A stretch of DNA of 64,000 nucleotides, from assembly GCA_037043015.1 (NCBI GenBank), contig CM073330.1:3249263-3313262 (forward strand), in the 5' to 3' direction. Shown here in pieces: positions 34,263 through 58,734 of this stretch (the first letter of the stretch is position 1; each line of letters starts with the position of its first letter). This stretch comes from Bryum argenteum. Its lineage: Eukaryota; Streptophyta; Bryopsida; Bryales; Bryaceae. A program made the position numbers and the translations under genes. The notes beneath the pieces were generated by a model, which saw only the letters and a program-made list of their open reading frames with translations, was not told where the DNA came from and did no database searches.

Positions 34263-34850
34263 GGGTATCACTTTTTGTCAAGACTAATTAGGTGATTTTT
34301 GGTTGAAACATCCAAAGTTCATCATTTTTTTCCATTTTTATCAATTATAAAGAGTACAAAATCATTTTAAAATATTGTATATGTAATTGAGATCAAGATG
34401 CACATTCCTAAGAAAAAAAAATTATTCAAATTTTTTATTTTTGGATCATTGAACCCTCTACAATAAATTGCATATTGGTCGGATTTGCAGGCATCATGGT
34501 GCAAAAATTATTAATTTTTTATTTGTCAAACTAACTATTTTATATAATGCACAAGTACATGTAAGTCATATCCAAAAATGGTATCAAAATGTGATCATTT
34601 GATGTATCGGATGATTGTTTCTTAGGATTTTGTGTAATTAGGACACAACTTACTTTTTCAACTGAAATACCTAATAAAAACTCTTAATATTCTTCAATGC
34701 GATGAAACTTTTTTTTTTTTGGTAGGTTATAAGTGCTGTAAATTGAAACCACATTTGGTGTTCTCATACTTAACTTTATTTAGAAGATAGACATGTTTGA
34801 CACACTTACATGAGCTGAAATTGTACTGGGGACAACTTTTTTGGACACCC
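34263..34850. mobile_element. Dispersed AT-rich repeat, copy 1 (588 bp)
   Basis: It starts GGGTATCACTTTTTG and ends ACAACTTTTTTGGACACCC. The ends are imperfect inverted repeats. Collinear blocks shared with 40084-40673 include GATTTGCAGGCAT-AT and GACACAACTTACTTTTTCAACT. Probably a non-autonomous DNA element; superfamily unknown. Confidence 0.6.
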
Positions 34851-35802: not shown

Positions 35803-37456
35803 CATTGATTTCGACCTTATATCAACCCTGCTTCTAATGAATGATTATTACTCTAATTTAAAAAAAGTTACATAGGGCGATTCGAATATCTCTGTACATA
35901 CGGATTCCCAATTAAAATTTTCATACTAGATTTGTATCTTGTTCACAAAACCATGAGGGTAACCACTGATATGTTACTTCTGGTTACTTCTGGAGTGCTT
36001 CCAATTCAATAAGATCATTTGAAGATTATTTTAATTTACCCAAATTTACGGACCACTAAAATCTTAAAAAATAAGTCCTTCCATCTAAAATCAACTACTT
36101 ATATGCATATCTAATGTCACATTTGCATACATAAGGTAGAGTGTCCTATAAGCACCAACTTAAGAGATTGACCTATTTTTAGCACTAGTAAATTCAAAAT
36201 AAAATTATGACCACATTTGGAATAGATTTTCGGGAGGATTGCAAAAATTTGCAACACGTAATTCGCATTTGTGAATTTTATACAAAATTCCAAAGTGCTA
36301 AGTAAGATTTGACCCAAATGCGTTATATACAAATGAGGTACATCTGTATCTTCACAATCTGTATCTACAAATGAGGACAGATCGCTTTTGGGTCCCCTGG
36401 CGCTTTTAGGACTGCCTACCATAGTCGTTTATGAATACACCTAATACCTCACTACCACATGATCGTTCACCTATATTGCTTCTAGCTCATTCAACGAGGC
36501 TCCCCCTGAATCCACCGATGGAACTTCCGGCAGGTACTAACTTTCGATAATCCGACATTGTTTGTCAAAAAACGTGCTATCCACCAGAAAACACTTTGTC
36601 AATATGAATGTCTGCTACAACAACTCTGGACTCGACATTCAACATTCAAAGTCCCATTACCGTCAACTGATTCTGGTTCATGACATTTCTGCAATATCAA
36701 GGGAACGTGTTTGGTAGTACAAGAAGGGGATATTAAGTATTTTGAGACAAAATGGACATATTGAGATGTTGAAAAACGTACACGCAGGGGGATTAGGAAA
36801 AAGTTGTTGAAGTATTTCAAATATATGAAATTTAAATTAACATGCTAAGCAAAAAGAAAGAGTTGCAGGGTCCAATCACAAAGCAATAGATTTGAAAATG
36901 AGATCTTAATATAAATAGAAGGAAGTAGAGATCAATTTGACAATTTAATATTTCTAAAAATAGACATTCAACAATACATAGTTAAGAATCATATAGGAAC
37001 CATGTTCATATTAATTCCCGTGAGAAGTCACGATTGACTCAAGTGAGATCATAGTTGAAAGACATAGTAAAGGCTGTATTGAAGTATGAATAATACGTAC
37101 AATTGTACAAGTGTACACTATATTTTAACATTGGTATATATCGTAAAAGAATGAAATCAGAGAATGAATGTAGAGTCATTAAATGTTGTGCCTATAATAA
37201 TACTAAAGAAAGAGTAATTAAAAGAATGTTTGTAGAATATACAAAGAATATACGCGGTTTATACTAATCACAGAAGAGCTATAAATGCATAGTCACAAAG
37301 GGGATAATCCTCAAGTAAGCACAACTAGCTAAGCCCTGATATCTTAGATGTACTAGGTTCCACCAATCTGCGAAACACATTAATTATGTTGAATATATCC
37401 CGCTGATGAAGGATATCAGACCGGAGGAGGAAGAATAGAAAGGAGGAACATTAAGG
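35803..37456. other. No gene recognised
   Basis: AT-rich throughout. A minus-strand frame at 36117-36422 is made largely of AT-rich codons and has no domain. Confidence 0.45.
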
Positions 37457-38364: not shown

Positions 38365-38545
38365 GTTATCCACAAGCGGGGATAACTAGATCTAGCCGGG
38401 GAGAACTAACGTCCTGTTCACAAGCAAAAAGCATACAAGAACATAGAAGCAAACAACCAGTGAAATCAAACTCGACATAAAGAGAACATATGACTCAATG
38501 CATACAAGCTGATACCTCCAAAGATTATCCCCGGGCCGGGCATAA
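38365..38545. repeat. Two outlying copies of the TTATCCCCGG palindrome
   Basis: A degenerate copy, GTTATCCACAAGCGGGGATA, lies at 38365-38386. A better one, centred at 38535, reads TATCCCCGGGCCGGGCATA. Both fall just upstream of a probable splice acceptor on the minus strand, so they may be intronic. They are the left-most members of the family centred on 41-47 kb. Confidence 0.8.
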
Positions 38546-38784
38546 ATGACGTCCTAACTGACAACAAAGAAAGAGTCATACAACAGAAACAACCATCAAC
38601 ATCAATCCTAAGTGAACAAGCATCCAAAAATGACGTAATAGAAATTGATCACATTGCGATGTGGTACATAAAGGATGATAAAATAATCGGCTTTTTTATT
38701 TAAACCATGATATTCATACAATAGCAACTCATTTACATGTTTGTCAACTGTGTCCTCAAAAAGGAATAAAGAGCGCCCTAACCG

Positions 38785-39799
38785 TCATCTGGACAATGAC
38801 TCAGGAAATGAAGGAGTTTCGTAAGTACGCCCTAAGTTCCTATGCGACTGCGCCATACCATCTAAAATAAACCGACCTAAATTGCTATACTTATTGATAG
38901 GCGGAATACCAATCCTATGATTGTCTACATAGGACCGAAGATTCCCAGGCCTGCAAGTGGCGAGAAGAGCGAGTAGCCATGGAGTAAGCACGGCGGACAG
39001 AGTATTGTCCTCCCGGCTAGATTTTGTCCAAGGCTGGAGGAAAATGGCGTTCCCAGTGTGGTTGCAAATACTCTTCTCAGGACTGTCGTCTATGATGAGA
39101 GTGTTATCCAACCCAAACACAACAAAGACTGTTACTAAGCGGGAACACCGCAGAGGACAATGTTTTCAAAAATATCCTCTTTTGAGCATTGGTCGGGTGC
39201 GACAAATAGACACCTCTAAACCTCAACCAATCCACAAGACTCTTGTCCGAGGATCTCAAAAGGCTTAGGAAGTCCATCAAGAGGTAGTCGATGACGGCCT
39301 CAACAAAGTGGACTTCTTCATCGAACTCCATATCACAACCTCGCAACATGGGCGGACATGGTCTCCAAGAAATTTCTCACTCCCGGGCGGCGTAAGACCG
39401 CCTTTGGGGGCACCTTCACTGGGATGTCCGGCACGAGAGCCGGTCCCGAGAGAGAGCACATGGGAGAATTCCTCCCGAGCGATGGCGGATGCACACACCG
39501 ACAAAGTATCCCGTTGATGTCGAGGACGACATTCAACCATCGAGGCGGCGCCGTCTGCCCGAGTGCAGACCTCGGCCGCGGGACACACTCAAATTGGGAA
39601 ATCAATTCTACCTGGCATAAAAGGAAACGATAATGTTGAGGATACCTGATTGAAAGCAGAGACACTGCGATCTGAGCAAATCCACAATGACGGCATGCAT
39701 TGCATCCGTGGCATTGGGGCCAGATCGATCGGATTCTGAAGCAATCTCACGGCCCGTGGGCGCAGAATGAATCCCACAGAGGTGAACTGAGAAAGACAT
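38785..39799 (-). pseudogene. FCP1/NIF-type phosphatase-like gene with variant DIN active-site motif
   Basis: Minus-strand exons encode an FCP1-homology (NLI-interacting factor) domain, the HAD-type Ser phosphatase fold of RNA polymerase II CTD phosphatases. Order: a first exon from 39799 (MSFSVHLCGIHSAP), a short GT-AG intron near 39645, then WLNVVLDINGILC, CEVVIWSSMKK, VEAVIDYLL and NTLIIDDSPEKSICNHTGN (38785-39120), ending PESLSR. The canonical first motif is DxDGT; here it is DING, keeping the nucleophile Asp but not the second acidic residue. Between IWSSMKK and VEAVIDYLL the frame shifts, with no intron evident. It is therefore probably a decayed copy, unless the assembly is wrong there. 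Confidence 0.65.
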
Positions 39800-40083
39800 T
39801 GAGGAAAATCAAATCACACTCCAATTTGAAGGCAAAAACGTTGGTATCAAAAATAAGTTTATTTACATCAATCATGTACAAGGGAAGTGTTTGTCAACTT
39901 TGACCGAAACACTACGCTGGATACTAATACTACCGAAAATCTAGAATACATGACGCACCACAGCAAACGTTGACAACTCCAGAAAAATCATAACGAATAA
40001 GGGTCGTCGATCTCCTGCAGGAGAAAATAGACGAATAAGCGAAGTTCAGGCAAGCGAATCGGTTTAGGGCAATGGTAAGCTTG

Positions 40084-40673
40084 GGGTATCACTTTTTGGA
40101 CACACTAATTAGGTTATTTTTATTGAAAGCCTCCAAAGTTTGTCTAATTTAGTCATTTTAATCAAGTAAAAAGACCCTAGAATAGAAAATAAAATATCAT
40201 GCACCTCATTGAAATCAAAGTATGTATGCCTATAGATTTTCTTTTAGATTTTTTATTTTTTTTGGATCCATTCATAGATGAGGGAAAAAGTGTTGAATTT
40301 GGGGATTTGCAGGCATTATAGTGCACAATGAATTAATTTTTTTATTATTAAATAAATTATTTTGTATTCTATACAAGAAGATGTAGGTCATATTCAAAAA
40401 TCATATTAAAATAAAAATGGTTGATATTCCATTTGCTTGATTCTATGGATTTTAGGTTATTGGGACATGACTTACTTTTTCAACTAAAAAATCAAATAAA
40501 ATTACTTCAAAATATTTTTTTTAATTTCTAATTTTTTTTCTTGATACATTATAAGTATAGACAACTAAAACCACATCTAATGAAGTCTTATTGTATTACA
40601 GTTTAAAAATGGATATGTTTGTCACACCAGCATAGAGTGCAATTGTTCATGGGACAACCTTTTTGGGTATCCC
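40084..40673. mobile_element. Dispersed AT-rich repeat, copy 2 (590 bp)
   Basis: It starts GGGTATCACTTTTTGGACAC and ends ACAACCTTTTTGGGTATCCC, with the same block order as 34263-34850. The ends are imperfect inverted repeats. It lies just downstream of the last frame of the ParB-like gene. Confidence 0.6.
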
Positions 40674-40695
40674 AACCAGACCATCACCCTTTAGG

Positions 40696-42822
40696 TTAAG
40701 GCCAAGCGACAAAATCATGACGGTTGTGACGACGACGAGTTATTGCAGACATGCGGGGGAGGGTGAAAGTACTTACATCTTCATGTGGCTCTTGCTGTTG
40801 AATCGCGTTGGTCGGGCTAGACGAATAGTCCACCAACTGCTGGTCTTCGGATTCCGGCGCCGCGACGGGCTCAGGATTGGTCTCCTCCACTACGACTCTT
40901 GGCTCCGCATTATCCCCGGCTCGGGAATAACTTACCAGCTGGTCGTACTGAGATAGTTCTAGACCAGAATCGGGTGGTTGAGCAGACTCAACCACTGGGG
41001 CAGCGGGTGCCAGACTCGATGAATCAGGACCCAAGGCAGGATCGTCGGCGGGAGGGGACACCTCAACAGAAGAGTCTGCATTATCCCCGGGCCGGGGATA
41101 ATCTCCAGACTGAGGAAGCTGATCGGCAGCAGCCTGAGATTCAGCAACGGCATCGGGCTGATCGGAAACAGCAACAGCTTCAGACACGACCTGCTCAGGT
41201 TCCCTCTCAGAGGGAATGGGCTGCGCCTGGGCGTCGGAGCCAGTCGCAGCAAGATTATCCCCGGCCCGGGGATAATCTGGTGTGGCCGTGCCCGAGGACA
41301 GCGGCAAAGGCTCGACCTCGCTGATGGGTGCAGACGCGGTGGTGGTGGCAGTATTATCCCCGGCCCGGGATAATTTGGTGTGGCCGTGCCCGAGGACAGC
41401 GGCAAAGGCTCAACCTCGCTGATGGGTGCAGACGCGGTGGTGGTGGTAGTATTATCCCCGGCCCGGGGATAATCTGTAGCAGGCTCGGAACTCGGCGTGC
41501 CCGAGGTGGAAGGATTATCCGTATTCTGGCGAGCGATTATCTCAGCAACGTGCGGTGGCATCGGCGTGCCAGATCTCAGCCATTCGAAGACGATGTTAGC
41601 CTCCGCGATCTTCCTTGCGTCCCCTGCTTCCTTCTGGGCCTTCTCTTTTTTCTGCCTCGCCTCTTCGGCTAGCCTTCTGTTGTTAGCCAGGAAGTGTTCC
41701 TCAACCTTCACACCCGGAGCACCTGGAGGAGGCGCAACTCCTGCTGCATTTGCCATTGGGTCAGTAGAGGGGTTGCACACCACGACACGTTTCTCCTTCT
41801 TCACAGGCGTGCCTTCATCCAGAGATGTCTGGTCTGAATCATCAAGGGGCCGGTTACGCAGACGGGAGCTCGAAGGTGTCGATGTCGGGAGCTCGATGGC
41901 TTCGCGTTCAGGAGCTGCGACATCGACGACATAGAATTCCTCCGACGGATCAGTGCCTTCCTCGTCACTGAGATCTATGAATACGTGGGTGGGCGCCACG
42001 AGTGCATAGAGTGGCCTCCCCCGTCTGTTAGGAACTTTACTCTGAGGGGTTGTGTCCACCGCAGGCGCCACAGTAGAAGAGGGCATGGCGCAAGACGCCC
42101 CATCCAATGGTTGACTCGGAGCCACGGTCTCAGCTGCGAGATCCAGCCGGCGTTTCAATGGCCTTCGTGAGTCGGGGTTGCCCGATGATCCGACGACAAC
42201 ATCCGCAGATGATTGAACAGGCATTGTCGTCGACGTAACGAGCCTCGACGGGATCACTGGCATGGGCTCCTTCCCAGGGCGTTGGTTCTCGGTATCAGGC
42301 CCCTGCGCCTGGTGCTCATCACCCATCGGAGTGGAGGAGATGTCTCCATTGCTTCCGGTGATGGTGCGGTTGGCGAAGCTTGCGCAGACGGTACTATGGG
42401 CGATGCCGGCTCTGATGGAGCTGTTGGCGATGCATGCGGGGATGACCTCACCGGGGAATGCCGAGTCGCCTGACGTCCCGATCGATAGTCCGAGTCGTTG
42501 GATGTGGCATCGCTGTTCCTTTTCTCCAAGGAGTCTGCGGACGTATCTGGAGCATGAGCTTGAGGGGACTGCGTGCTCTCAGCTCCCATGTCGGACACCG
42601 ACTCTGCTGCAGAAGATGAAGGTTGGCTCCCTTCGAATGAAGCCCTCGTGACGAGGCTGAGGTCCTGCAATTCGTCGGACGAAGAGCTCTTCTTGGGGAC
42701 GTAGGGACAGTCATCGTGGATGAAGTTCCTATAGTCGACCCTGGTCCTTTTACCCGCAGAGAGTAAGTATCCCCCGTAGTAGTGATTGTCTATCAGGCCA
42801 TAAAAGGCATGTTTCAGGATCT
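40696..42822 (-). CDS. Pro/Ser-rich tail region of the ParB-like gene, with palindrome-encoded DYPRPGDN
   Basis: Minus-strand frames continue the gene from a splice acceptor near 42823 (CATGCAG then ATCCTGAAACATGCC). The exon opens ILKHAFYGLIDNHYYGGYLL, then HDDCPYVPKKSSSSDE and long Ser/Pro-rich repeats (SPTAPSEPASP). The next frame (42326 leftward) holds an acidic VFIDLSDEEGTD motif, a coiled coil EEARQKKEKAQKEAGDARK, and a low-complexity tail carrying several DYPRPGDN or DYPRAGDN octapeptides. The frame changes at least twice. One change coincides with a palindrome copy one base shorter than its neighbours. The region may be a decaying gene or have unrecognised introns; function is unknown. 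Confidence 0.5.
40910..41473. repeat. Five palindromes in the tail-coding region, two in a 99-bp tandem duplication
   Basis: Copies of TATCCCCGGSCCGGGGATA are centred at 40920 (degenerate), 41091, 41265, 41364 and 41462. In the minus reading frame the full copies give DYPRPGDN or DYPRAGDN. About 97-99 bp starting near 41279 (GTGTGGCCGTGCCCGAGGAC onwards) are repeated head to tail at about 41377, each unit ending in a palindrome. The palindrome at 41353-41374 lacks one base. Centre distances of 171, 174 and 99 bp are multiples of three; the last is 98 because of the lost base. Confidence 0.9.
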
Positions 42823-43050
42823 GCATGAGAAGAAAAGAAGCGATCAATAACGGTGCGGCACAAGGGAAAAGTTATCCCCGGCCCGGGGATAACTGAGAGA
42901 CCAGAACGTGAAACTGAAGTTTTACAAGAATACCAACAACACAGGAATACACTGGTATACAATTAAAGTAATAAAAGAAGGTTAGCTATTTATCCCCGGG
43001 GCGGGGATAATGGGTCTATTTCGAGCCAAATGAGGATGCTGGGTGTCGAG
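42823..43050 (-). other. Probable intron carrying two palindromes
   Basis: The minus strand has a donor CCTG then GTAAGCTC near 43050 and an acceptor TTCTTCTCATGCAG near 42823. In the 228-bp interval lie palindromes centred at 42882 and 43000. Read through, the second one supplies a TAA stop (LSPPRG then stop), consistent with this stretch being spliced out. Confidence 0.6.
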
Positions 43051-44110
43051 CTTACCAGGGAGGCGACCATGAATTTAGAGCCGGAGAAGATCCCGAGTGT
43101 TGAGTCACCCTTCTTGCAGTACTGGCGGATGAGTCCAATGTAGAATTCCATCCGCAGCTCGGAGTACTTAGCACACCACTTGGCTTCGTTGAAGTGCCCA
43201 CTATCGATGTAATACGGTACATGGGCGGGTTTGAACTCCGCCGGGTTTGTGCCGATGAAGGCTTGCCCTTCTGGTGTCTTCTTGAACAAGAAGACAATGA
43301 ACACGTCGTTTGCGGATCTCTCTATGGCTGGCGCGTTGAAGATCCTCTCAGCTTTCGCCACCACGTACTTGGATGTGCTCATTGTGTAGGTGGGGTGGCT
43401 GAGCTGAATCATCGCCTTTAGCTTCTCAAGCTTCTTCGTAGTCCCGCCGTTCACGATCCAGACCCATACAGTAGGGTCGGTGTATGCTGGACTCGATATT
43501 ACCGCGAACTTTGCTACCAATGCTTTGAAGAACATCTTTGCAGCATTGGAGTCCTTGCAAAGCGAGAAGGCTGTATCACGCAAGTCAAACAGCCCCAGCA
43601 AAACTCTTCCCTCAGGCGCCTGGGTTGACCATTGGCCAGTAATGGTCATGGCCTTGGAGTCGAAGGTCCGAAGATCGAAAGCCTTCGTGGACTCCCGATG
43701 CTTGGACTTCTGCTGCAAGAAGCCCTTGAAGAAGTCCTCAACGTTGGGGTACAAGGACTTCAACTCCCCCGCCGTTTTGAACTTCCCCTGATTCTGCAGT
43801 CTGGTCGAGTAAAATTTTGCCTCGACGTGGCTGAGCAGCATGTTCCACGACGCCGTCGAGAAGCCCTTCCTCGACTTCCATACCTTCCATTTCTCAGGGC
43901 ATACTGCTCCGTCGTTGGGAAGGAAGAATGGTAGAGATGACCTGATCGCCTTCAGCTCTTGGTACACAACACCCTTGCACTTCTGACGAATAATCCAGTC
44001 ACCACAGGCGTGGCTCAGGCGATGGAAGTACTTCGTCTTGTGGAAGGACAACCCAGGATACTTCAGCGCACCTTCGGCGGTTTCAACGTGGACAAGGTAA
44101 GTGATGACCT
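43050..44110 (-). CDS. Middle region of the ParB-like gene
   Basis: A minus-strand frame of about 350 codons lies directly downstream of the ParB-like domain. Readable stretches include VHVETAEGALKYPGLSFHKT, SHACGDWIIRQKCKGV, WKVWKSRKGFSTASWNML, FFKGFLQQKSKHRESTKAF, GRVLLGLFDLRDTAFSLCK, VAKFAVISSPAYTDPTVWVW and finally GIFSGSKFMVASL at the splice donor. I do not recognise the family. The SSPAYTDP and FSGSKFM strings faintly resemble methyltransferase motifs (DPPY, GSGKF), and ParB domains are fused to DNA methylases in some bacteria and phages, but this is only a hint. The join to the upstream frame is out of phase. Confidence 0.5.
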
Positions 44111-45961
44111 GTCGATGTCGTCGTCGGAAAGATTTCCGAACTTCCTGAAGAGCTCCCGGCTCACATGATGCTTGTCTTGCGTGAAGTACGTTGGGTTCAT
44201 GCGATAAGATGCACCTGTATCGGGATTGATCAGATTTCCAAGCGAGTGAAGTTCGAGGAACTCTGCGAACTTATCGTACATGCTGTCTGGAAATGTGATG
44301 ATCTGGATCTCGTGCTTGAGGTCCGATGTTGTCAAAATTAACTTCCCGACCTTGGTGGGATCGATATTGCGAAACCGTATCAACAGAAGATCCGTAAATT
44401 TCTGAGAAAACATGGAAAAAAGGTTAGATGTGATGAGTGAAGGAACTTTGAATACGTCTGGAACAAACTCTGAAACAGAAGGTGGATTATCCCCGGGGCG
44501 GGGATAATCTTTGGGAATGGTGTATTGTCTTACCTTAAAATTAGTAGGATTGTAGACCGAGTCGTTATTCCGCGTCGCGTTCTCGTTCACGCTTGCGGAT
44601 GGACGCCCACATTCGATCCAAATAGACCTTCCAGGTTTTATTTGGTTGCCCCACGTCGGCTGAGCGTGCTTCAGAGGGTTTGTGGTGTTGTAGGAGGCCG
44701 ATATCGCTGTAAGGCGCTTTGGGTCGGTCTCGTAAAGAATGTAGGCATACCACGATTGAAGCTCTTTCTTCCTGTTCTCTGTCACGGGCTCGTTCTGAAG
44801 CTCCCTCGAGGCTTCCACGGAGTGCTGGCCATCAATGATGGCAAATTTTCCATCTTTGATCTCCTCCCATGTTCTCGGCCTCCTAGGGAGCAAGTTTCCA
44901 TTGGCGTCAATGGGCGTGATGATGATCGTCTGCCTCCGGGTTACATCTCCCATCATTGCGAGGAATGCCTTGGTGTTCGTAACGATGTCCCTTTCGAGAC
45001 TTCGCACAACCCATGCGTCCTTTCCCCTCTCAAGCTGGGAAATGGGCACCAGCTTCTGTTCTTTCTTGAACAAGAAAGAGTCTTTGAAGCTTTGGTTGAA
45101 GACTGTCTGCTCAGAAGCAAACCTCACATAGTCTGCCACTTCAGCAGAAGGTTTCGATGATTCCTTCTTCTGTCGGGCAGGCACTGCGACTACAGAAGTC
45201 AAGGCCGATCCTTGACTTGCGGTTGCAGGGGGAGCTGTACGCTGTCTCTTCTTCTTGGGGGCGGCACCGCCTGCAACGATCGCATCATTCATCAACCTCT
45301 TCGAAGGCACTCGCGGAGGTGCCGGTAGAGCACCACTAGACTGCGGAGCTGAAGCTTCCGTATGCATGACAACTGCAGACGCGGCGGGTGCCTTCTTCTT
45401 CTTAGCCGCTTTACTGCTTGACCCTTCATGCGTCTATGACAGCCTTGGCAGCAAGGTCGTAAGTTTAAGAACTGTATCCTCTTGGTTGATGTTCTCCCAG
45501 CTGTTGATGTTGTCCTCCCAAAACTTGACAAAGCCATGCCGAGTCTTGCGCAGCTCGGCGAGAAAGCCATGCGGGTCGAACTGTGCTCCGCAGTTTTCAC
45601 CCACCTCTACCACAATTCCGAAGTGGTAAGGGTCCCTACCCTCGTCCTGTTGTTGAAGGACACACCTGAGCATCATATACTTCTGTCTGTGTGCCTCGAA
45701 TGCTATTACCCTCACATTCTGGTGTAAGGGAAGAAAAGGGTCCGTCATGACCAACTTGGTCATAACGAGGACATGGTTCTTCACAATCTTCAAGCACCAG
45801 CTGACGACCACATCCTTGAAGAGCCAGAGGTCAAGGCTTTCGTCATCGTTATCGCGGAGGAAGGGGTTGAAGCCGAATGGGTGCTCGACCTTGTCCAAGG
45901 TCATGTCGAGAGGATTTGTGGCGCTGAGAGCCATCGTTTTGTCTGCAATCAAAAATGGCAA
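44063..45961 (-). CDS. ParB-like (IDGQH motif) protein, N-terminal part
   Basis: From ATG 45961 the minus strand encodes an N-terminal region (SLDLWLFKDVVVSWCLKIVK, then FWEDNINSWENINQED). A Lys/Ala-rich linker with a basic, nuclear-signal-like APKKKRQR follows, then the domain: AFLAMMGDVTRRQTIIITPI, ARTWEE-like RPRTWEEIKDGKFAIIDGQHSVEA kept short here as KFAIIDGQHSVEA, and KRLTAISASYNTTNP. The IDGQH box and the order of elements resemble the ParB/sulfiredoxin-like fold, which includes DNA-binding CTP switches and nucleases. One in-frame stop separates the N-terminal part from the rest. A probable 131-bp intron (44403-44533, donor TTTAAG-GTAAGA, acceptor TTTTCTCAG) contains one palindrome. 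The palindrome array starts 30 bp upstream of the ATG. Molecular role unknown. Confidence 0.6.
44487..44507. repeat. Palindrome copy in a probable intron
   Basis: TATCCCCGGGGCGGGGATA, centred at 44497, lies between the donor GTAAGA near 44533 and the acceptor near 44403. If the intron is retained it reads DYPRPGDN in the gene's frame. Confidence 0.85.
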
Positions 45962-45990
45962 CTCGTTAATACTGTTGCCTTAACAAATTA

Positions 45991-46852
45991 GTTATCTCCG
46001 AGGCGGGGATATTTTCTGTCTAGTCTAGCTATTTTTTACGGTTAGGGCGAAGAAATATCCCCGGCGCGGGGATAATCTGCTGTTTCTTTTTGTACAATGT
46101 TCACGCAAGGAGAAGTTATCCCCAGGCCGGGGATAACTTCTGCATGGACAGGTCACATAGCTGTCATGTGCAGGAAGTTATCCCCGGGCCGGAGATAACT
46201 TGTGCACACAGAGGTCACAAAGCTGCTCTTAATGGAGAAGTTATCCATGGCCCGGGGATAATTCTCTGCTCAGAGCAGAAAATTATCCCCGGGGCGGGGA
46301 TAACTTCTGCATCAAGAGGTGACAACGCTGCTCTGCATGCAGAAGTTATCCCCGGGCCGGGGATAATTTCTGCATTCAGAGGTTACAACGCAGCTCTTAA
46401 TAGAGATATTATCCCCGGCCCGGGGATAATTCTCTGCTCAGAGCAGAAAATTATCCACGGGCCGGGGATAATTCTCCTTTCAGAAGCGAAAAATTATCCC
46501 CGGCCGGGATAATTCTCTCTCGAAGCGAGAAAAATTATCCCCGGGCCGGGGATAATCTTTGCATTAAGAAGCCACAATGCAGCTCTGCATGTAGAAGTTA
46601 TCCCCGGGCCGGGGATAATTTCTGCATTCAGAGGTTACAACGCAACTCTTAATACAGAGATTATCCCCGGGCCGGGGATAATCTCTGCATTAAGAAGTCA
46701 CAATGCAGCTCTTACTACAGAGATTATCCCCGGCCCGGGGATAATTCTCTGCTCAGAGCAGAAAATTATCCCCGGGCCGGGGATAATCTCTGCATTGAGT
46801 TGTGACAATGCTGCTCTGCATGCACAAGTTATCCCCGGGCCGGGGATAACTT
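45991..46852. repeat. Array of 16 GC-rich palindromes on a 21-bp module
   Basis: Sixteen copies of the palindrome TATCCCCGGSCCGGGGATA, some with one to three changes, are centred near 46002, 46065, 46126, 46188, 46251, 46293, 46356, 46419, 46461, 46503, 46545, 46608, 46671, 46734, 46776 and 46839. Steps are 63 or 42 bp, except 61 and 62 at two positions. With its outer TTA/TAA the palindrome is 21 bp. Spacers are about 21 bp (TTCTCTGCTCAGAGCAGAAA, itself palindromic) or about 42 bp (containing TTACAACGCAGCTCT-like sequence). The array ends 30 bp before the ATG of the leftward ParB-like gene, so it occupies that gene's promoter/5' region. Both strands happen to be open for stretches and give IIPGPGI-type repeat peptides. 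Confidence 0.93.
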
Positions 46853-48500
46853 TGGTGACAAAAAGTACAAAGGGTGAATGTACACTAAACCGGTACAAAA
46901 ATGTAGTCACAGTGACAGTTTCAGGAGTGTGTGGTGTTCAATCGTATGTCAATTAAATTATAGGAGATTGTTGAGGTTTTTGGTACCATAATATGGATAT
47001 ATACTCAACCTTCTACCAATGTTTGAAGTGTTTATTAATAGATTGTGCTTCAAATGAACATAAAGAGTATATTTATATACCGACATATACCTGTCACAGT
47101 TTTGTATTAGGCACAAATATACTTTGTTGGGAAAGAGAATTTGTACAATCTAGGCGTAACTTATGGATTGTGTAATGTACACACATTGCTCTTGCATATT
47201 CAATATGGAAATATGCAAGCCATAGTCTAAATTGTCATCTATAGAAAGACTTAGCTTGTTTATTTCAACACAAAGAAAAACAAAGTGGAATTGTTTTTTT
47301 TTTGGTTTTTTTCGTAGTTACTGTTTAATGTGACTAGAATGTACGTGGGCCAGCTATAGCAGAGAATAAATTCCATTCCGTTAGCAGATATTGCCTCGGA
47401 TCTTAAAATGCAGCTGGGGAGCACTTTATGGTATGTTATATACTCTGAAGTACCTGAATGTACTCAATTACACTAGTGAGGCCTGACACAACGCCACGTG
47501 TCTCGCCTTTCCGATCAAATCGGCGGCCCTCTGACAGCCCACGACCTGCAAAAGTAACCCTCGCAATGATGACGCTCCGTTGTTGCATGAAGCTCGTTAA
47601 TATCATTGGACAGGAGTGGGTAACTGCCGCCTTCTTCTCCCTCGAAACGGATCTGAAGTGCTTGCTTTATCGCCCTTCCTTGGACTCTTCTAATTGCTAC
47701 TGCTGTAGGGCGGCGCTAGAAGGCTATCTTCAAAGCTCAGACTTCAATTGAACGTCCATTTCGTTCTAAAAATGGGAGAATTTTCTGTGAACGTTTGTCA
47801 GATGAATGGAATCCCAATGAATTTGGGAGGTTTAGGGTTTGGTGTTGTGCGGTATCGCCCTTTCTGGTCAGTTTCTTCTGTTGTTGTGTTTTTCGGAGCT
47901 GTTTCACCAAAAACTCAGAAAGTGCGAAGCCCGAAAGTGAGAAGTCGAGAATATGTTGTGCGCTTTAGAATCTGGAGGACGAAGAGAGAATCCGTGAATG
48001 CTAATAGCGGTTGGAGGAGTTGTCTAGCGCACTCAGAAGTGAAGGGCGTCGACACCAAACCCCAATCTCACCGTGGAATTTCGATCTAGGTATCACTTAT
48101 CCATAATCTGCTGCTCTTTTGTTTCAATATTCATCTGATGCTAGTCTCGCCATTGACATACTCCCGCCTAGAAGTTGAATCGTGTTTTGTTAGAATAGTA
48201 TCCAGTTAGGGAGGGATCTGAAGCCTTTAGTAGAATTTAACTGCCTGCATGCTTTCCCGCTTTCTAGAGAAATGCCCTTGATTTGTATTTGCGAGTCTTT
48301 TATCTCGTTGCGTGAGGAATGGCGTCTGGCCTGAGAGAGATCCGATGCCTGGAAGAGGATTTCACTCCAATGCCTTACGAGCAATTCCTGGTTTCGGAGA
48401 AAAACGATGCTAGATCCAAAACCTCGCATTCCTTCTGTCTGTGTTTCCGTGACTGCATTCTTCCCCGCTTCGTACAGACAACCTCCCGCTGCTAGTTATT
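46853..48500. other. No recognised gene; possible exon near 47.75-48.09 kb
   Basis: 46860-47450 is AT-rich with nothing recognisable. From 47480 to 48100 the sequence is richer in GC, and a plus-strand frame from 47748 runs 113 codons to a stop at 48089. A GT splice donor-like site (CGATCTAG then GTATCACT) overlaps its end. It resembles no family I know. Confidence 0.35.
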
Positions 48501-48506
48501 TTAACA

Positions 48507-49440
48507 TTGTCGGAAAAGTTCAACCCATGCTGCACTATTGGTTTCTCTGCTCATATGCCTTTTTTTGGAGGGAACTTTGTAGGAAACGAAATGGGAAATG
48601 CGCGGACTCAACAACGGCGTGCTGGAGTGAGACGTCCCGGACCTGCTCAGAGAGCACAAGCACTTCAAGAAGAGCTTCTTCGACCTGATGTAATTCTGGC
48701 TAGAGAGCGAGCAGCTGAGCGTCAGCGGCAATGTCGGATGAGAAAACGCGCAGTACAGGAAGCTTCGAGATTGCTCCCCACAGCTGACGATGGAGCACCA
48801 TCGCGCGATTTTGGGCGAAGAGATGCCTCTAGAGTCTCGAACAAAATCGTTCAATTCATAATCGAGGAGTTCCAAGGTGTGCGTCGGGGTCCTGAGTTCC
48901 GGAAGGCTGTGATGGAATCAATGCTTCGGAATACTGCACTAATGCCTCATCTCCCGGAGTACTACTCGTGCCCGTCTGAAGCCAGAGCTCAGCATTCGTT
49001 CATCCAAAGCTACAGGACCGAATTGGAGTCATTGAAGATACCAACTTCGAAGGAGAAGTTGGTGAGAAAGACAACTCTTCTTGAAGCTGCGATTTCCAGA
49101 AATGTTGGCGGAGTCAGAGCATTATCGAGGGTCCTGGGCACAAAGAAAAGTAACATTTCCAACGCAATTCAACGCGTCAAACTCGAATCGATTGGATCCT
49201 CGCCTTCACCTTAGTCAACGGAGAAAGCGAGAAGGCATTTCCAACAATACGAAAGCCTTAGTCAACCTATGGTGGACTTCAAACCCGAGTAAGTCCGAAC
49301 AAGAAGGACGTGACGCGAAAAGGTTGGGGCTGAAAACATACGAACAAAGACCCCTACGCATTTCCTTCTAGAAAGCCTCGGTATGTTCAACTCCACACCG
49401 TCCTAAATTTCTTACATTCTCGCAAGTTTTCGATATATGA
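48507..49440 (+). CDS. N-terminal part of an unclassified DDE-like transposase
   Basis: The plus-strand frame carries an Arg/Gln-rich helical stretch (RERAAERQRQCRMRKRAVQ), a predicted helical domain (VSNKIVQFIIEEFQGVRRGP), and a helix-turn-helix-like segment (NVGGVRALSRVLGTKKSNIS) typical of a DNA-binding head. After 49214 another frame continues with WTSNPSKSEQEGRDAKRLGL and NKDPYAFPSRKPRYVQ, so either an intron or a frameshift lies near 49200. It pairs with the catalytic-type part at 50085-52027. Animals and algae have similar uncharacterised proteins with the same domain order; this is from memory and the family is unnamed here. Confidence 0.6.
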
Positions 49441-50084
49441 TAGTACCTCGATCGGTAGAATGTATCCTGCTGAATACATGAAATGCATGATTGAAGTATC
49501 TCATTGTCCAGACGTCTATCTTAAAACTACACCACATGAATATGTGTGAAGTCAAGGCACAAAGTTGACTACATGCATGTCTATTGGTTTATAAAGTACT
49601 GTGGTTTATGTACTCCTCATACCATGCCTTGACTTTGTAGACTTTTGATAGTGTGTTGTTTAACTTAATGTACACATTTGATGTAGGATTACAAAACATA
49701 GTACCTTCTACAGGATACAATGTACTTTGAGGTGCACCGGATCGTGTATAAAGTAGATCCCACAGTCTTTGTAGACTTTAATATACATTGGCTAGTATAT
49801 GTTCGACTCTGAATTCTAATGTATGTATATGACATATACATTTCAATGTATATGTAGTGTCTGTACTGAGGATATAGACTACCATACACGTACTTCTGTA
49901 TTGTAAATACAAACCTATTCTATACTTCTCACAGTACATGATTTTATTGATCAAGTATGTCGATATAGTATTCAAGTATGCTTACTGTCCCATATAGCTT
50001 GTCAGGTATATTTACATACTTACGATGCTATCTGTGCATATACATTTGAAGTATATACTATTTTTGTTGGGTAGATTTACTTAC

Positions 50085-52027
50085 CTTCAGTGGGCATGCA
50101 CTTGATTTTGATTCTTGCAGTCTTCTTTCCATTCTCGATTCCGTATGGCGCACGAAGATCAGACAATAGGATTCAGCGCATTTGAGAGATTGAAGCCGTT
50201 TTTTGTGAAGAGGTGCAAAGATCGTAATGTTTGCTGCTGCAAATACCACGTAGAGATTGACTTGCTCCGGGAAGGGATGAACAACATGCGTAATTCCAAT
50301 AAGGGAGTACATGCTTCCTTATCTTGCAGTTGTGATTGTCCACTTTGCATAAGTACTTCCGAATTGGGTTGTTCTGCAGCAGAACAGAGTTTTAAAGGGG
50401 TGACTTCACTGTGGGAGCAAATCGTCTGTCCGAAGGCAGAGACTCATGAATTCCACAAACTTGAATGTCTGATGGGGTTGTGCGGTAATTGTGGTGCAGA
50501 CAATCTCCCAATTTGTCCTCTGGAAAGGTCAAATGAGACCTGGACCTTGAGATGGAGGTGTTTTGAGAACGAATTGGTTGGGTACACTGACAATGGGGAG
50601 CCCAGGAAGAAAATTAAGGAAGTGTTCAAAGAAACTTCTTGCTATGTCTTCATACAGTATTTGTTGCCAAGATTGCAGAAATTTGTGACTCATAATTTTG
50701 TTGCTAGGTGGCAAGATTTGCAATGCGGAAAAGTATGGAAACTTTGCCTCATGATGTCGTGTTGTCTCATATAGACTTTGCTTTGAAATTATACTTTTGA
50801 GATGCAAAACGAAATTCAATCAATGCATTGGCAATCTTCACAGTAACCATCTTAGTTCACATCACATACCGCATGGATGTGACTACAGGTAAAGTAAGGA
50901 AAGACACTCATTTCTATATTTCGGATGACCGCACTCATGATACTTTATTTGTCCAGCATTGTTTGCTTCTCCATTGGGCATGGATGAAATCTGAAGGTGT
51001 CAACCCCTCTCGCCATTGGGTGTGGAGTGATGGGTGTGCAGGGCAGTTTAAAGGGGCTAGATCTATGTACTTTGTTAGTCGTTATCCTGGACTAACGGGG
51101 GGTTGTGAGATTACTTGGAATTTCTTTGGGACAGGTCATGGAAAGGGGGAATGGGATGGAGCCGGAGCTGTGGTGAAGCGGGCTCTTCGAACAGAGCAAC
51201 TTCACAACCCGTCAAGGAGGTTGCAAGACGCCAAAGATGTGGTGGAATTCCTTACGGAGTCCATGTCAGGCCTGGTGTCGAGTTCTTTTCAATCCAAGAG
51301 AACTGTGTCGTATAGACACTTTTACAACATCAAGCCTGATGATGTGGAGAGGACACATTTACATGGATGTGACACAATCCCAGGTTCAAGGAATTTTCAT
51401 TCTATACATGCAGTCTCACCAGCGGACCCAACATTGTTAATGGTCAGAGAGCTTGCTTGCTATTGTGCACCATGTATAGATAGTGACTGGCAATCTTGTG
51501 AGAATTCATCACATGTTAAGTCTTGGAGGGTTGTGAAACTAGCCCCTACTAATGTGACTTTTGTGAGGGACCAAATGGTGCATGGTCCAGGAGAAGGAAG
51601 CAATTCTGCTGAAGAAGAGCCGTGGGATTACGTATCTGATGATGAATCACTTGGAGGTTTGGTGAAAATTGGTGACAATTTTGCTGTTCCAGCGATCCAA
51701 GGCAATCGGGAAGGTGTTGAGTTCTATGTTCTCCAATGCGAAAAAGAAAAACAACTTGTGCGAGAGAGCTTCACTTGCGTGTGGGGTGGAGAGTTCGAGC
51801 GTGGGCAACACGTTATTGCAGGTACCTACTATCAAAAGTGGGGGAATAGTGAGCAATCATATGTGTATTTGACTAATTCCCAACTTGCTTACATTGATGC
51901 GGATTTAGTTCTTGCCTGCAAGTTCACAATGGTGCCTGCTCTTCATAGAGTGAAAGGAGATGATCCTGTTTATCAGCTGAGTAGTGAAACTATCAAAGTC
52001 ATTAGGACAAGCCTTGAGGGGTTCTGA
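50085..52027 (+). CDS. Unclassified DDE-like transposase, zinc and catalytic-type parts
   Basis: The first frame (50115-50774) opens in IGFSAFERLKPFFVKRC, then a Cys-rich NVCCCKYHVEIDLL and the spaced Cys sets CSCDCPLC and CGNCGADNLPICP. The second frame (50828-52027) has FYISDDRTHDTLF, the box VWSDGCAGQFKGARSMYFV, then WNFFGTGHGKGEWDGAGAVV, which together look like Asp-based catalytic motifs of an RNase H-fold transposase. A C-terminal Cys patch (ELACYCAPCIDSDW) and a degraded tail follow. Between 50765 and 50828 the frame changes, possibly at a small intron. It belongs to a family of hypothetical proteins I cannot place in a named superfamily. No terminal repeats were found. Possibly still nearly intact. 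Confidence 0.6.
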
Positions 52028-52960
52028 TGTGTGATTAAATTGATAACAACTTTTTAATGATTTTTCGTCTTCATGATAGAGTATGTAATACTATGTGGTG
52101 GAATTCTTGGGTATGAATGCATTCTGTAAAATACTTTTAGTGTATCAGTATACTTTATGTACTCTATCGATGGGTGATGTATACTTAAAAAGTCCTGAAA
52201 TATACTTGGGTCACTGTATATACTTGGTGCATGATATGATGATACTAGCATACATGGGGGTACTGTAGAAAATCAGTTAGTGAAAAAAAAAAAAAAAAGT
52301 CCCAAACATGGACTGCCTCCGGTTTGGGTATTCAATTGTGTCATGCAAGAACCGGTCCCCCCCCACATCAAGGGCAAGGTACTTTCCCCTTATGATTTCT
52401 CTCGTCCCCGATCCAAGGACAACTCGGTGTCTTCTTGACGAAAGGACTCGATTAACTTCAGACTTATTTACCCCGTGAGGTAACTTCCCGAACAATATGG
52501 GATAAATACTTTTACTGAGCTTTTTATTTGTGATCGCATTTTTTTTGTGATCGCATTTTTCGCCAAAAATGACGAGGCGATCTATCAAACGGGCCATGGC
52601 AATACAAGAATATACATTGACAAGTGTAATTACATACCGCCATATTCCTACCCACTTTTTAAGTACTTTCATATACATGAACATGCGATCACCCACTCTG
52701 AGTAAAATTAAACCCAATAATTTGTATTATTTGAAGGAGCTCGAGTTTAATAAAACTCTTCCAATGTACATATCAAAAGTACATATACACATACTTTGCA
52801 AGGGTCTTTTAAACTACATTGCTACATGTACACATTATTCTGCGACTACTATGCACAACATTTAAACATATGGTCTTGAGGTATTTCTTCAGCACATGAA
52901 TGGCCGGCCGGGACCGGAAGACTAGCACCACCCGTATCCTCGCAGATGCTATGCTATTGC
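52028..52960. other. No gene recognised
   Basis: AT-rich, with a 16-bp A run at 52281-52296 and a repeated TTTTTGTGATCGCATTTTT near 52530-52560. Minus-strand frames at 52277-52717 have no known motif. Confidence 0.45.
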
Positions 52961-52961
52961 A

Positions 52962-54490
52962 AAGAACACCTAAACCCACATACGGTTTTAGGATTCTTGG
53001 AGAAATCCATGCCGTAGTCCCGGGTTAGCTCCTCGCCCGCCTTCACTTCTTCTTTTGTAAAAATGCTACCGCTCACACACAAGCAAACATCGGCGGTCAA
53101 ACACACTCAAACAATGCTCACACACAAGCAAACATCGGTTTAGGGCAGCTCAAACAGTGCTCACACACAAGCAAACATCGCGAGCTCTAACAGAGGATCA
53201 CATCGCTGCGTTCCTAGTGGGCGGTGGTCTTGTGAGAACGAGAATGCATCAAATGAATGTGAAAGAAAAAACAATGCATCAATGGGAACTTGGAGCTACA
53301 AACTCACATGATAGTATCTTGATTCCATTGTGTCAATCTTCACAGGAATGTCAATAAGGTTGGCGTCATAACACCTGTGGAGCAAAAAAAACGATTCATC
53401 ATGCAAGCATGCACACAAGTAGCACACAATCCCTTCTAAATACAGGAGTGCACAAAACATGCAAGCATGCACACAAGTAGCACACAATCCCTTCTAAATA
53501 CAGGAGTGCACAAAACCCGTATTATGAAGAACATGAACTCCTACTCTTACCGATGGTTCACGAAACGTGAGACATTCCCACACTTCGTTGCATCAAGACA
53601 CAAGGCCTCTTCATCTGTAAGCAAAATCTCGGACCTCCAATCGGCATCTAAATCCAGCGCATACTTGGTTTGGAATGGCCGAGTTGACATCTCCTGGTTA
53701 CTCACAATTTGGCCCACATATTCGAAGACAAACGCTCCTTTGGGAAGTTCCTCCAAAGTCCGAATACCCCACTGTTTCTTTGGGTTTGTCCAAAAAATCT
53801 GAAACACACAACAAGGCATTATAATTCACTTTCAAAACAAACACATTCACAAAAAAAAAGCATATGAATGCCAACATGATTTCATATTTATAAATACCAA
53901 CTGTAGTCTTCGTGTCGGACCTCCGCACCACCCCCGGTTTGAGCGATTTTGGGCGACATCCACATTGGGCCGAGCATTCCTTCAAAAAAGTACGCGAAAT
54001 ATGGCCATCACAGATTTGTTCCTTACCGAAATACAAACACTTCGGCCCCTCGCAATACTCGTAAACATCCTCCTCTTCTCCAAGTTTTTCTCTTCTTGCC
54101 TAGTCATCCAAATAACACATTATAAGAAACAAACATACACATAAGATTTGCCAATTCTAGAATTAACGGCATTTGTGAGTACAAGTACCATCTCTATGTA
54201 GTCTTTGGTGAAGCAAACCGTTTGCTTCGTATGGAGGAAGCATTCCATCTTGACTTGCACACGAACACCGCCTCCTCTTCGTTCGCGACCCACCGCCACA
54301 CAACTTTTTGCGTACTCACCGTCCTTGAAAATCCCCGGCAATTTTAGAGCTGCACTTCCATGACGCACACTACACTTCATATATTTAAATCGAGGTGGTC
54401 CCTGCTCTGTGCCTTCTCTGAACTGTATGTCAATAGGACATTGCTCAATCCCGACAGAAAGATCACATGAATCTTTCTTTCAAGTCTGAT
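52962..54490 (-). CDS. SUVR-like histone lysine methyltransferase (SET domain), partial
   Basis: Minus-strand exons with good splice sites carry a pre-SET and SET domain in order. About 54189-54487: PPRFKYMKCSV to CFTKDYIEM. 53898-54099: YCEGPKC, ICDGHISRTFLKECSAQCGC. 53551-53798: QWGIRTLEELPKGAFVFEYV, ALCLDATKCGNVSRFVNHR. 53308-53374: CYDANLIDIPVKIDTMESRY. About 52962-53075: TKEEVKAGEELTRDYGMDF. The NHR and GEELTxDYG boxes form the S-adenosylmethionine and catalytic pocket; such enzymes act on histone H3K9 in plant chromatin. The pre-SET segment is divergent after CGC. The last exon ends soon after GFRC without the usual post-SET CxCxxxxC. It may be a decaying or atypical copy. The exact join of the two central exons is unresolved. 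Confidence 0.78.
53069..53180. repeat. Three copies of CTCACACACAAGCAAACATCG
   Basis: The unit GCTCACACACAAGCAAACAT appears three times within 110 bp, inside what should be an intron of the SUVR-like gene. Confidence 0.8.
53399..53516. repeat. 59-bp tandem duplication in an intron
   Basis: A unit starting CATGCAAGCATGCACACAAG and ending GAGTGCACAAAAC stands twice with no difference by eye. It lies in the intron between the two central SET exons, so it is a very recent event. Confidence 0.88.
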
Positions 54491-54718
54491 CCTGCATCAA
54501 CTGATCATGAGATGTTCAAATAACAAATTGAATGCCCAAGGCTACAATGTACAAAATAATGAACAATAATATATCCAAGAGAGCCACCTAATTGCGGTAA
54601 ACTCTCAACGATCCATACATGTTGGAAGTGCCACCATAAACCTGTGATGGTAGGGCAATGCCAAAAAAAAGGGAAAATGACACAAGAAAAGGGGTTCTAC
54701 TTAAGAACCAAATAGCCC

Positions 54719-54893
54719 TGGCCGAAATGCTACACAGCTCACGGCTCTCTGTTACATGCGCCTCCCGTTAGTCACGAATAAAAAAAATTATAAAAATAAA
54801 AACTAGCACTCGGCCGAAATGCTACACAGATCACGGCTCTGTTCCATGCGGCTCTGTTAGTCACGAATAAAAAAATTAAAAAAATAAAAACTA
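54719..54893. repeat. Tandem duplication of about 85-90 bp
   Basis: GGCCGAAATGCTACACAG and the following TCACGGCTCT-GTT-CATGCG, GTTAGTCACGAATAAAAAAA blocks occur twice (about 54720 and 54813) with small differences. Confidence 0.8.
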
Positions 54894-55014
54894 AACCTTC
54901 AGATCTCTCCTACTACTTCAATCTAACTTCACCTTGTACGTCGCTTCGACTTTGTTGGTGCGACTGCGCATCACCTGTCAAGACAAGACACAATTTCTTC
55001 ATCTTCTAGCTCGG

Positions 55015-55910
55015 TCAAGGTTTAAGCGGATCTACCTTGGGCCTCTTCTCGGGTCCGCTACGAGATTTTTGTGGGGGTACATATGTAGCGGGTCCATCAC
55101 CTCGCGTCCGCACTTTATCGGTTTTGGCACGGGTATAAACCGCGGTGGGATCGCAAGTTCGCCCACGCTCCTTGTTTTCACGGGCCTCTGCGGTATTAGG
55201 TTGGTACACCTCGAACGGTGGTACATTCCTCACAACGCCTTTCGGCTCGGCTCGGGAGCGGATGGAGATTCAATTTCCTCGATCGGTCTTTGATGAATGC
55301 GGAGTCTGTCCCTTCAATGCAGCAATCTCGCCCTCAATTCTTCCAAAACTCTATCTCGGTCGGCCTCTCCAAGATTTTCAGCAACCTTCGAACCGCTCCC
55401 ATCTCCTTGGGATTTAGCTTGCCCGCACTCAAGACCACCACTTAGTGCAAAGATCACCCTCGTCATCGCCCACATTTTCTTCCACTGGGATGGGTTCCAT
55501 CTCCACATCCTCGATCTCCGTTCCTAAGTCGGGCATATGACAATCGGCGTCGGGACCCTCTTCATGGTCGTATGGGGTCTTTGGCGAATCATTGTCGCCA
55601 CCGCCTAATCCCGGATCGGCGTCCAAAGCTCTTGGGACTAAACCGTGTAGAGGACTATCCGCTTGTCCCAAGGTCCCGGGAGCATCTTTCTTCACCCTAT
55701 CGTAGTCGGGAGTATTCCTGCACTTTGTCATCTTCGGCGTCCTTGATCTTTGATCTTCCGGAATCGCCAATTCCCACTTGAATCTGCGGATTCACGGCTT
55801 GGTTGGCTTCTCCATGACTCCAAACTCCTGTACAAATGGAGCCAGGGCCGGAGGGCAATGGTTGAGATGAACTCCGCAAAACCAACAAAGATAAAGCTTA
55901 ATGCTCAAGC
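55015..55910 (-). CDS. Unknown acidic/Pro-rich exon-like frames upstream of the SET exons
   Basis: The best minus-strand frame (55770 to 55429, 113 codons) reads SRTPKMTKCRNTPDYDRVKK, then PGLGGGDNDSPKTPYDHEEG and VEMEPIPVEENVGDDEGD: acidic, low complexity, no domain. It is followed (55015-55400) by frames with EKRPKVDPLKP-type basic tails. It stands between the SET exons and the zinc-finger-like frame at 56.6 kb, on the same strand, and may be part of either gene. Function unknown. Confidence 0.35.
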
Positions 55911-56574
55911 ATCAAAGTGGTCCAAGAAGAATTAAGACGGGCATCGAATCGAACATGATATACTACTATAGTATGGAATAGGGCATCAAGGTACTCGTGC
56001 AATAGTACATTATACTACCAAAAGCTGTATATGGTATGTAAACTTACCTCTCAAGTACAAGATGTAGTATATCATACTATTACCACATCTGTGGCGCACT
56101 GGCGCAAAGTACAAACTCTTACTCGAGGTACACAAAGTACTTCGAGTAACGCACCCACAGTACACAAACACTTCGAGTACAGTAAGCAAAGTACAAACAC
56201 TTACTCGAAGTGTGTTTCCTTACTACAGGTTACAAAAATATACTTCACTGCAATTCTCTAAGTACTAACATAAACGTCTGAAAGTATTTGTTCGTAGGTT
56301 ATATACTTGCAAAGAGCTAAGTCAATACTGAAGCCAGTTTCGAAGTCTCACATGTACTCATGTGGAGTACTAAACCAGACTCTGCCCCACAAAACTACAT
56401 CTACTTCAACAATTCACACCTTCTCACTCCCGAGCATACTCTACCCATCGACTATATGTATCCGAAAAATGAATAAAAAGTAACCAAATTGTACATGAGG
56501 TTGTATAGCATAAGAGTAAGAGAGGAGTGAACTCACCAATGTCGGGAAGTTTCCCCTTCGCGATTGTGGTTCTC

Positions 56575-58148: not shown

Positions 58149-58734
58149 CTGTCCCCGCACCGCACCACCGCAAACTTCAAAGAAACTAAAACTCAAAAAC
58201 TACGAACTTGGCAAAAGGAAGCAACGAAACAAGACGAAGGCCACAAAAACCACAAATAAGACAATACATAACACCCTAAAACTTAACCAATCTCACCTTC
58301 AAAATGGAGACTTCCGACACCGACTTCTTCTTGCCGCACTTCACTCTCCCGACCGATCTTGGACTCACTTTCCTCCACTACACCGCTTCCCAAAAACACA
58401 AAGAATAGCACCATCTTGCGAAAACCATCTACATCTTGCGGGAGTCGTTGATGACAACCCTAAACTAAACGCTCGTGTTTCTACACTCGGGAACTCGGTA
58501 AAGCACAATAATAGGGGAGAGCGAAAACGGCACACTCTCTCGGCGCTCGAAGATAAACAACCGTCAACTACACACGCTCACGCTCGAAAAACTACACACG
58601 CTCACGCTCGTAAGCCTACACACTCCGAACGCTCGAAAAACTACACACTCCAAAAGGGCGGCCTTCACTTGCACACGAACACCGCCTCCGAGCACCCTTA
58701 ACCCTAACCTTGCACACGAAAGCTTTGGAGGAGA

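Follow-up and report, generated by a model that had tools for sequence, protein, structure and literature searches.

Sixteen GC-rich palindromes stand 5' of a ParB-like gene in the 64,000-nucleotide stretch of Bryum argenteum DNA analysed here (the window), and they belong to a DNA transposon of 17-20 kb with terminal inverted repeats (TIRs) of ~20-25 bp and target-site duplications (TSDs) of 4 bp. Related elements in the same genome carry arrays in which the half-site word differs from family to family. On balance, and with moderate confidence, comparison of these sequences favours the palindromes as sites for a dimeric factor encoded by the element, most likely its ParB/methyltransferase-like protein, which would control or un-silence the element's own promoters.

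The array (array 1, 45992-46849) begins ~58 bp upstream of the ParB-like start codon (45934, minus strand). Our recount agreed with the initial annotation in giving 16 palindromes at steps of 42 or 63 bp plus one of 61 and one of 62 (in order, centre to centre: 63, 61, 62, 63, 42, 63, 63, 42, 42, 42, 63, 63, 63, 42 and 63 bp). All are of the TTATCCCCG-NNN-CGGGGATAA class, and each 21-bp site consists of two inverted 9-bp half-sites around three freer central base pairs. With an identical threshold, 26 sites were found in the window versus 1 in the reversed window, the 10 outside array 1 lying between 38366 and 44507; genome-wide (258.8 Mb, 25 contigs) there are 689 exact TATCCCCGGSCCGGGGATA sites and none of the reversed pattern. 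Array 1 is far above chance expectation. The second small palindrome that had been noted in some short spacers, TCTGCTCAGAGCAGA, is present in 3 of the 5 (46265-46279, 46433-46447 and 46748-46762), and was not seen in the array spacers of three other copies inspected.

The mobile element itself was revealed by comparing the copies on contigs C9 and C8. The C9 copy spans ~19.2 kb and has the inverted ends AAGGGGATATT...TATTTTGAGACAA and the TSD TAAA, the C8 copy has the TSD ATGT, and two divergent families follow the same plan at C4:24803476-24823260 (TIR AAGGCCATATTCG..., TSD ACTA) and C6:642802-659573 (TIR AACACCATATTCA..., TSD CTAA). Both ends were found for two elements of the site class labelled CC (that of the window), one of class GT and one of class CAA, and all four have a 4-bp AT-rich TSD and a short TIR; a TIR search of stretches L050, L055 and L056 gave no match at up to five mismatches. 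Two divergent genes lie on either side of an AT-rich centre, with a palindrome array 5' of each; the right-hand gene encodes a DUF7869 protein (PF25273, E 9.7e-43), presumed to be the transposase, which gave no match against PDB sequences. An open reading frame (ORF) for a NIF (FCP1-like) phosphatase follows the ParB-like gene in the C9 copy (PF03031, E 3.9e-10). Of the 73 sites listed in the first 2.86 Mb of contig C1, 70 have a listed ParB-like or DUF7869 match no more than 15 kb away; the area within that distance of a match makes up 9.8% of the stretch.

The second array, 5' of the DUF7869 gene, consists of 22 sites in the C9 copy, with one step of 67 bp and the rest of 43-46. The corresponding places in the GT and CAA families were fetched after array 2 had first been seen in one family. 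In the GT family 16 GT sites were found in the stretch, in an array stepping by 53-55 bp, and in the CAA family 9 sites of CAA; the other words tried, with up to three mismatches allowed, gave none. The two genes also tend to occur together: a DUF7869 match is listed no farther than 25 kb from 15 of the 31 best ParB-like matches, divergent in every case, and from 13 of the 49 places of a second search (12 of them divergent). A few of these places are shared with the best 31, and the chance rate of such pairing is ~3% per gene. These counts are lower bounds, because only part of the candidates was scored (148 of 901 for the ParB-like exon, 150 of 1669 for DUF7869 and 49 of 1573 in the second search, the matches being stretches of which several can come from one copy).

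Four words were read from DNA, namely TTATCCCCG, TTATCGTCG, TTCAACTCG and TTTAGCTCG, in which both arms differ together within the shared frame TTNNNNNCG-NNN-CGNNNNNAA; one genome thus holds four words, found in family-specific arrays 5' of genes and also where introns are inferred. A de novo search in distant paralogues returned TTATCGTCG in eight loci (with a variable outer base) and TTCAACTCG in two, both in the 9-3-9 form and at corresponding places, and two DUF7869 copies of 62% identity, the two TTTAGCTCG loci that were read, carry TTTAGCTCG-ANT-CGAGCTAAA arrays with 23 and 15 copies listed. Genome-wide exact counts were 1544 for the TTATCNNCG class (reversed control 1), 995 for TTCAACTCG (control 0) and 5878 for TTTAGCTCG with the ANT centre (control 0). 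Among the relatives P0001-P0022, 15 of 22 have, beyond an exon boundary, a peptide that back-translates to a CC, GT, CT or AC palindrome, some of them worn, and in the clean peptides the codons appear compatible with matching arms; the CT and AC words, like a possible TTTGGGTCG, are back-inferred from peptides and are not DNA reads. Mapped onto a tree of 49 ParB-like sequences, the site class requires 6 changes, where 5 is the fewest that 6 labels (one being unknown) permit and shuffling gives 15.4 on average; GT lies wholly to one side of a starred branch, and so does CAA. Separately, P0027-P0029 have VWVDRPK or VWVARPK beyond the exon end (twice in P0029), which could correspond to the palindrome TTTGGGTCG with a 2-bp centre.

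Conservation is concentrated in the sites. In the CC class (369 sites, 32 loci) half-site positions carry 1.5-1.9 bits, the flanks 0-0.5 and the adjacent base 0.8, although selection of these sites at four or fewer mismatches inflates their information; for that reason a partner-arm test was added, counting half-sites on both strands. Given one exact half-site, the partner arm matched at 8.47 of 9 positions for CC versus 2.37 in a shifted control, 7.38 of 8 versus 1.59 for GT, and 8.70 of 9 versus 2.78 for CAA. The printed arrays show that most spacers differ while half-sites persist. As symmetric, family-private sites 5' of both genes persist among drifting spacers, a dimeric element protein is the likely reader.

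The ParB/methyltransferase-like protein is favoured as that reader on three grounds: sites lie in its own gene, its divergence goes with that of the word, and in two families the word is missing from the TIRs. In the window the gene runs on the minus strand, its introns having been inferred from the ends of relatives' exons. The 5' end (MALSATNP...; ATG 45934) occupies 45434-45979, with an in-frame stop before the next ORF in this copy. That ORF (44063-45433) takes in the ParB-fold domain (DGQHS) and inferred intron 1 and reaches into the start of exon 2; its ratio of nonsynonymous to synonymous substitution rates (dN/dS) is 0.11-0.27 over 10 chosen copy pairs. Inferred intron 1 holds a palindrome at 44487-44507, where several relatives have palindrome-coding peptides. 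Exon 2 (42990-44270) encodes a helical region and a beta-class methyltransferase-like fold, the latter predicted on relative P0008, and inferred intron 2 holds two palindromes between 42872 and 43010 (42872-42892 and 42990-43010), at which place relatives have LSPGRG, LSPVRG, LSSGRG, YHRAGD or YPRTGD. A Ser/Pro-rich C-terminal coding tail follows at 40696-42326, its frame broken in the window copy at 41354-41373 and its dN/dS against the C9 copy 0.40 and 0.58 in two parts; five palindromes lie in it between 40910 and 41472 (at 40910, 41081, 41255, 41354 and 41452), and their four counterparts in the C9 copy lie in frame as YPRxGDN, in the form (D)YPRxGDN.

The initial description of this gene as ParB-like is backed by structure prediction, which gave an N-terminal ParB/Srx CTPase-type fold, although P0001, P0004, P0006 and P0009 matched no ParB model of Pfam at E values as high as 10. 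Against PDB sequences (E up to 1) there was no ParB match, and the ParB-like alignment drew one weak, unconvincing match. A GERR-like CTP motif is a hallmark of ParB; here GQHS takes its place in all 8 aligned sequences covering it, which leaves room for a different nucleotide chemistry. After the ParB domain comes a region modelled with low confidence and then a predicted beta-class DNA N6-adenine methyltransferase fold. The catalytic motif of such enzymes is DPPY/W, where 14 aligned sequences have D-(L/I/V/A)-R and then D, E, N, V or A, and P0028 has DFRN. Searches of the ParB-like ORFs with Pfam, PADLOC and NCBIfam gave nothing credible, the ParB-like and exon-2 ORFs had no match among phages, and the exact 21-mer was found in 0 stretches of viral contigs and 0 of genome contigs; an alignment of the second half drew 68 pattern-matching stretches from genome contigs, none encoding a relative. 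No ParA was noticed, though no systematic search for ParA was made. At least 151 stretches of the genome match the ParB-like exon, and relatives exist in other sequences. P0006 is filed under an uncultured Synechococcales cyanobacterium, yet it ends in a palindrome-coding peptide like those of the transposon genes, and its source is perhaps a mis-binned contig. Contig C1, which at 44.1 Mb makes up 17% of the genome, has 16 of the 31 best ParB-like matches and 30 of the 49 places of the second search, many with internal stops, and is possibly a repeat-rich or sex chromosome.

The most serious competing reader is the DUF7869 protein, which would bind the sites as an internal enhancer or repressor for transposition; we regard this as unlikely, yet worth keeping in view. 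The protein has weak helix-turn-helix (HTH) matches (HTH_23 and HTH_Tnp_1, below cut-off), and in three families array 2 immediately precedes its gene. However, the arrays lie inside the element (in the C9 copy, about 8.6 and 3.5 kb from its ends), sites also occur in the inferred introns and tail of the ParB-like gene, and between families with different words DUF7869 is the better conserved protein (67% and 63%, versus 40% and 33% for the ParB-like protein). The GT and CAA TIRs (AAGGCCATATTCG... and AACACCATATTCA...) lack their own words, that is, those of two of the three families with ends found. Subterminal transposase sites were rejected on this ground, though the tip of the CC TIR shares GGGGATA with the half-site.

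We give less credence to a host factor, a transcription factor or silencing complex whose reading of the sites the elements either exploit or suffer. The arrays do lie 5' of genes, and in all four DNA-read words the half-sites end in CG, placing two CpGs around the 3-bp centre; any link from these CpGs to CG methylation is guesswork. The idea of a single host factor, with which one shared word would be expected, is disfavoured, since the word differs among families in one genome and follows the phylogeny of the element.

Slighter still is the chance that the palindromes act as RNA hairpins in splicing, small-RNA production or termination. A 9-bp stem with a 3-nt loop could form, and several sites belong to inferred introns or to coding sequence, but the arrays are upstream of start codons and the same change occurred in both arms in only 1 of 265 variant columns of the CC class, so that CC arms are held to the word and not to each other, and pairing as such is not preserved there. 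Both arms changed alike in 22 of 150 variant columns for GT and 8 of 30 for CAA, which would suit a hairpin; this evidence is less clear because the GT set pools the sub-words GTATCGTCG, CTATCGTCG and TTATCGTCG with different outer bases. We would place lower again a neutral minisatellite, in which functionless palindromes spread by tandem duplication of a 42- or 62-bp unit: a tandem repeat finder reports the arrays, and neighbouring units are sometimes duplicated, but flank information is low among mostly differing spacers, isolated sites are kept at the inferred intron positions of relatives, and periods differ between families.

The initial annotation had also set the palindromes on an exact 21-bp grid, two turns of the helix, by which all sites would face the same side as in an operator array. 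The grid holds for the window copy, where 13 of 15 steps are multiples of 21, and fails elsewhere: across 29 other CC loci (L006-L034, any step up to 130 bp being taken), a tally of centre distances gave 57 multiples of 21 and 76 multiples of 3 among 280 steps, with 62 bp commonest (n = 88), followed by 63 (49) and 61 (48). Multiples of 21 make up 0 of 21 steps in CC array 2, 0 of 14 in GT array 2, and 4 of 63, 2 of 30 and 1 of 7 in the remaining groups; step ranges in other arrays of the element type are 43-46, 53-55 or 35-37/72/104 bp, or irregular. The spacing test covered seven array groups, in which L005 is the window copy, and L006 and L035 are one C9 copy, hence some sites were counted twice. 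Four regular groups have different 10.5-bp phases (-0.2, -0.9, 3.0 and 1.4) and three show little or no phasing (R 0.02, 0.08 and 0.32). A regular step is frequent within arrays; because phases differ or vanish between groups, there is no common helical grid, and a strict 21-bp or 10.5-bp grid was rejected as a rule, and with it the same-face phasing. What survives of the operator-like array near the ParB-like gene is a set of probable protein-binding sites. A gene for a repeat peptide of IIPGPGI units, once offered as a rival explanation, can be set aside as very improbable: 2 of 3 frames through the palindrome are open, but a conserved start codon follows the array, few steps elsewhere are multiples of 3, and spacers are poorly conserved.

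Under the favoured reading, the ParB/methyltransferase-like protein would load on its own element at the palindromes and control both promoters, which it would most likely keep active or clear of silencing chromatin, by analogy with VANC in VANDAL transposons; a change of word between families would insulate them from one another. Several observations weigh against it. The element is inherited as a unit, so covariation of site and protein singles out no protein. On the tree the CC label needs 3 changes and the CT label 2, neither forming a single clade, and the CC-labelled L040, with many one-arm departures, groups with an AC-type relative. The GGGGATA of the CC TIR tip, the co-changing GT and CAA arms and the HTH matches of DUF7869, by which the transposase could be the reader, count on the same side, as does the broken state of the window copy. 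The Pfam HTH scan of the ParB-like proteins gave one weak winged-HTH match (P0010, 14.6 bits versus a cut-off of 27) and no clear DNA-reading domain. A broader scenario, in which a eukaryotic transposon superfamily took up a prokaryotic ParB-methyltransferase fusion for self-recognition in the manner of ParB/parS, whose nucleotide-switch protein loads at private 21-bp palindromes in its own promoters and introns, spreads along the element and defends it from silencing, with diversification of words insulating families, is put forward tentatively and is rather doubtful.

Elsewhere in the window, the left TIR (AAGGGGATATTAAGTATTTTGA) was placed by TIR comparison at 36724-36745 on the plus strand. 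Two worn palindromes lie near the 3' part at 38366-38545 (38366-38385 and 38525-38545), and approximately 38780-39535 on the minus strand matches the NIF phosphatase ORF of C9 (L035:1484-2230), with no 150-aa ORF here. A different DNA transposon, nested at 46872-59057 (TIRs matching at 20 of 22 positions, TSD CAAA), splits the copy; it is 12.2 kb long, has the TIR GGGT..ATGTACACTAAACCGG and holds ORFs at 50112-50774 and 50801-52027 without a credible Pfam match. Owing to this insertion the right part of the host element restarts at 59058, the first CAAA being the nested TSD, and leaves the window; 59064-59294, 61560-62333, 62911-63197 and 63461-64000 match the C9 copy within 59058-64000, and by that comparison the DUF7869 gene and right TIR are placed beyond the window end. 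About 620 AT-rich bases at 40069-40690, missing from the C9 copy and 74-80% similar to parts of 34263-34679, are probably a small non-autonomous insertion. CC and GT elements share a conserved imperfect palindrome like ATATCTACATACGTCGTAGATTTTAG immediately beyond array 1 (L035:8724, L037, L041, L043 and window 59072), perhaps a core promoter or the site of a second factor. Gypsy-like polyprotein ORFs, judged by eye, lie at 6348-13560, both 4876-5291 and 15049-15266 hold an 18-bp tandem repeat, and the presence of an At3g26010-like F-box gene is plant-like.

The closest known parallel is with VANDAL transposons. PMC5735166 describes VANC motifs that form tandem repeats 5' of VANA21 and within the introns of VANB21 and VANC21; they vary between related elements, and the protein that binds them causes loss of DNA methylation. 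As in VANDAL elements (PMC5735166, PMC10398659), short family-specific motifs, often tandem, lie in a transposon 5' of one gene and inside the introns of others, and the transposase is better conserved than the companion protein. The VANC21 motif is 9 bp and arrayed in one orientation, whereas here it is a 21-bp palindrome; VANC proteins carry DUF1985/DUF287, whereas the present system combines ParB and methyltransferase-like folds, DUF7869 and 4-bp TSDs. No DUF1985 protein or MULE-type transposase was matched by Pfam in the ORFs scanned. The palindrome system is analogous to VANC, to judge by this likeness, with unrelated parts, and is not a member of the VANC family. Bacterial ParB binds palindromic parS through an HTH domain. 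Fusions of ParB with a methylase exist, for example Bce_0392 of Bacillus cereus (PMC5512222), and the predicted ParB N-terminal fold followed by an adenine-methyltransferase fold, with clusters of palindromic sites in the same element, recalls them. Here, in contrast, the carrier is a eukaryotic-type transposon, Pfam ParB models give no match, GQHS is present, the catalytic motif is absent and the 21-bp sites are family-private. Sola2 elements (PMC3627910) share the 4-bp AT-rich TSDs and short TIRs. The present elements differ in their 17-20 kb with extra genes and in a DUF7869 without Pfam-assigned function. Rickettsia palindromic elements put palindromes in frame inside protein-coding regions, as here, whereas the present ones go with a single group of transposons, clustering in arrays 5' of the genes. 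Among the titles and abstract openings of the matches listed from the open-access literature, there was no plant transposon with such palindromes or a ParB-like protein.

With more than 8,000 exact sites in the three counts (1544, 995 and 5878), the words matter for annotating this genome, and four of them in one genome, with at least two more inferred in relatives, form a natural specificity series from which to learn how a DNA-reading protein changes its word. If the favoured reading is true, private DNA address systems at own promoters and introns would have evolved at least twice in transposons with unrelated proteins, and a ParB-type domain would enter the conflict between transposons and plant-like hosts.
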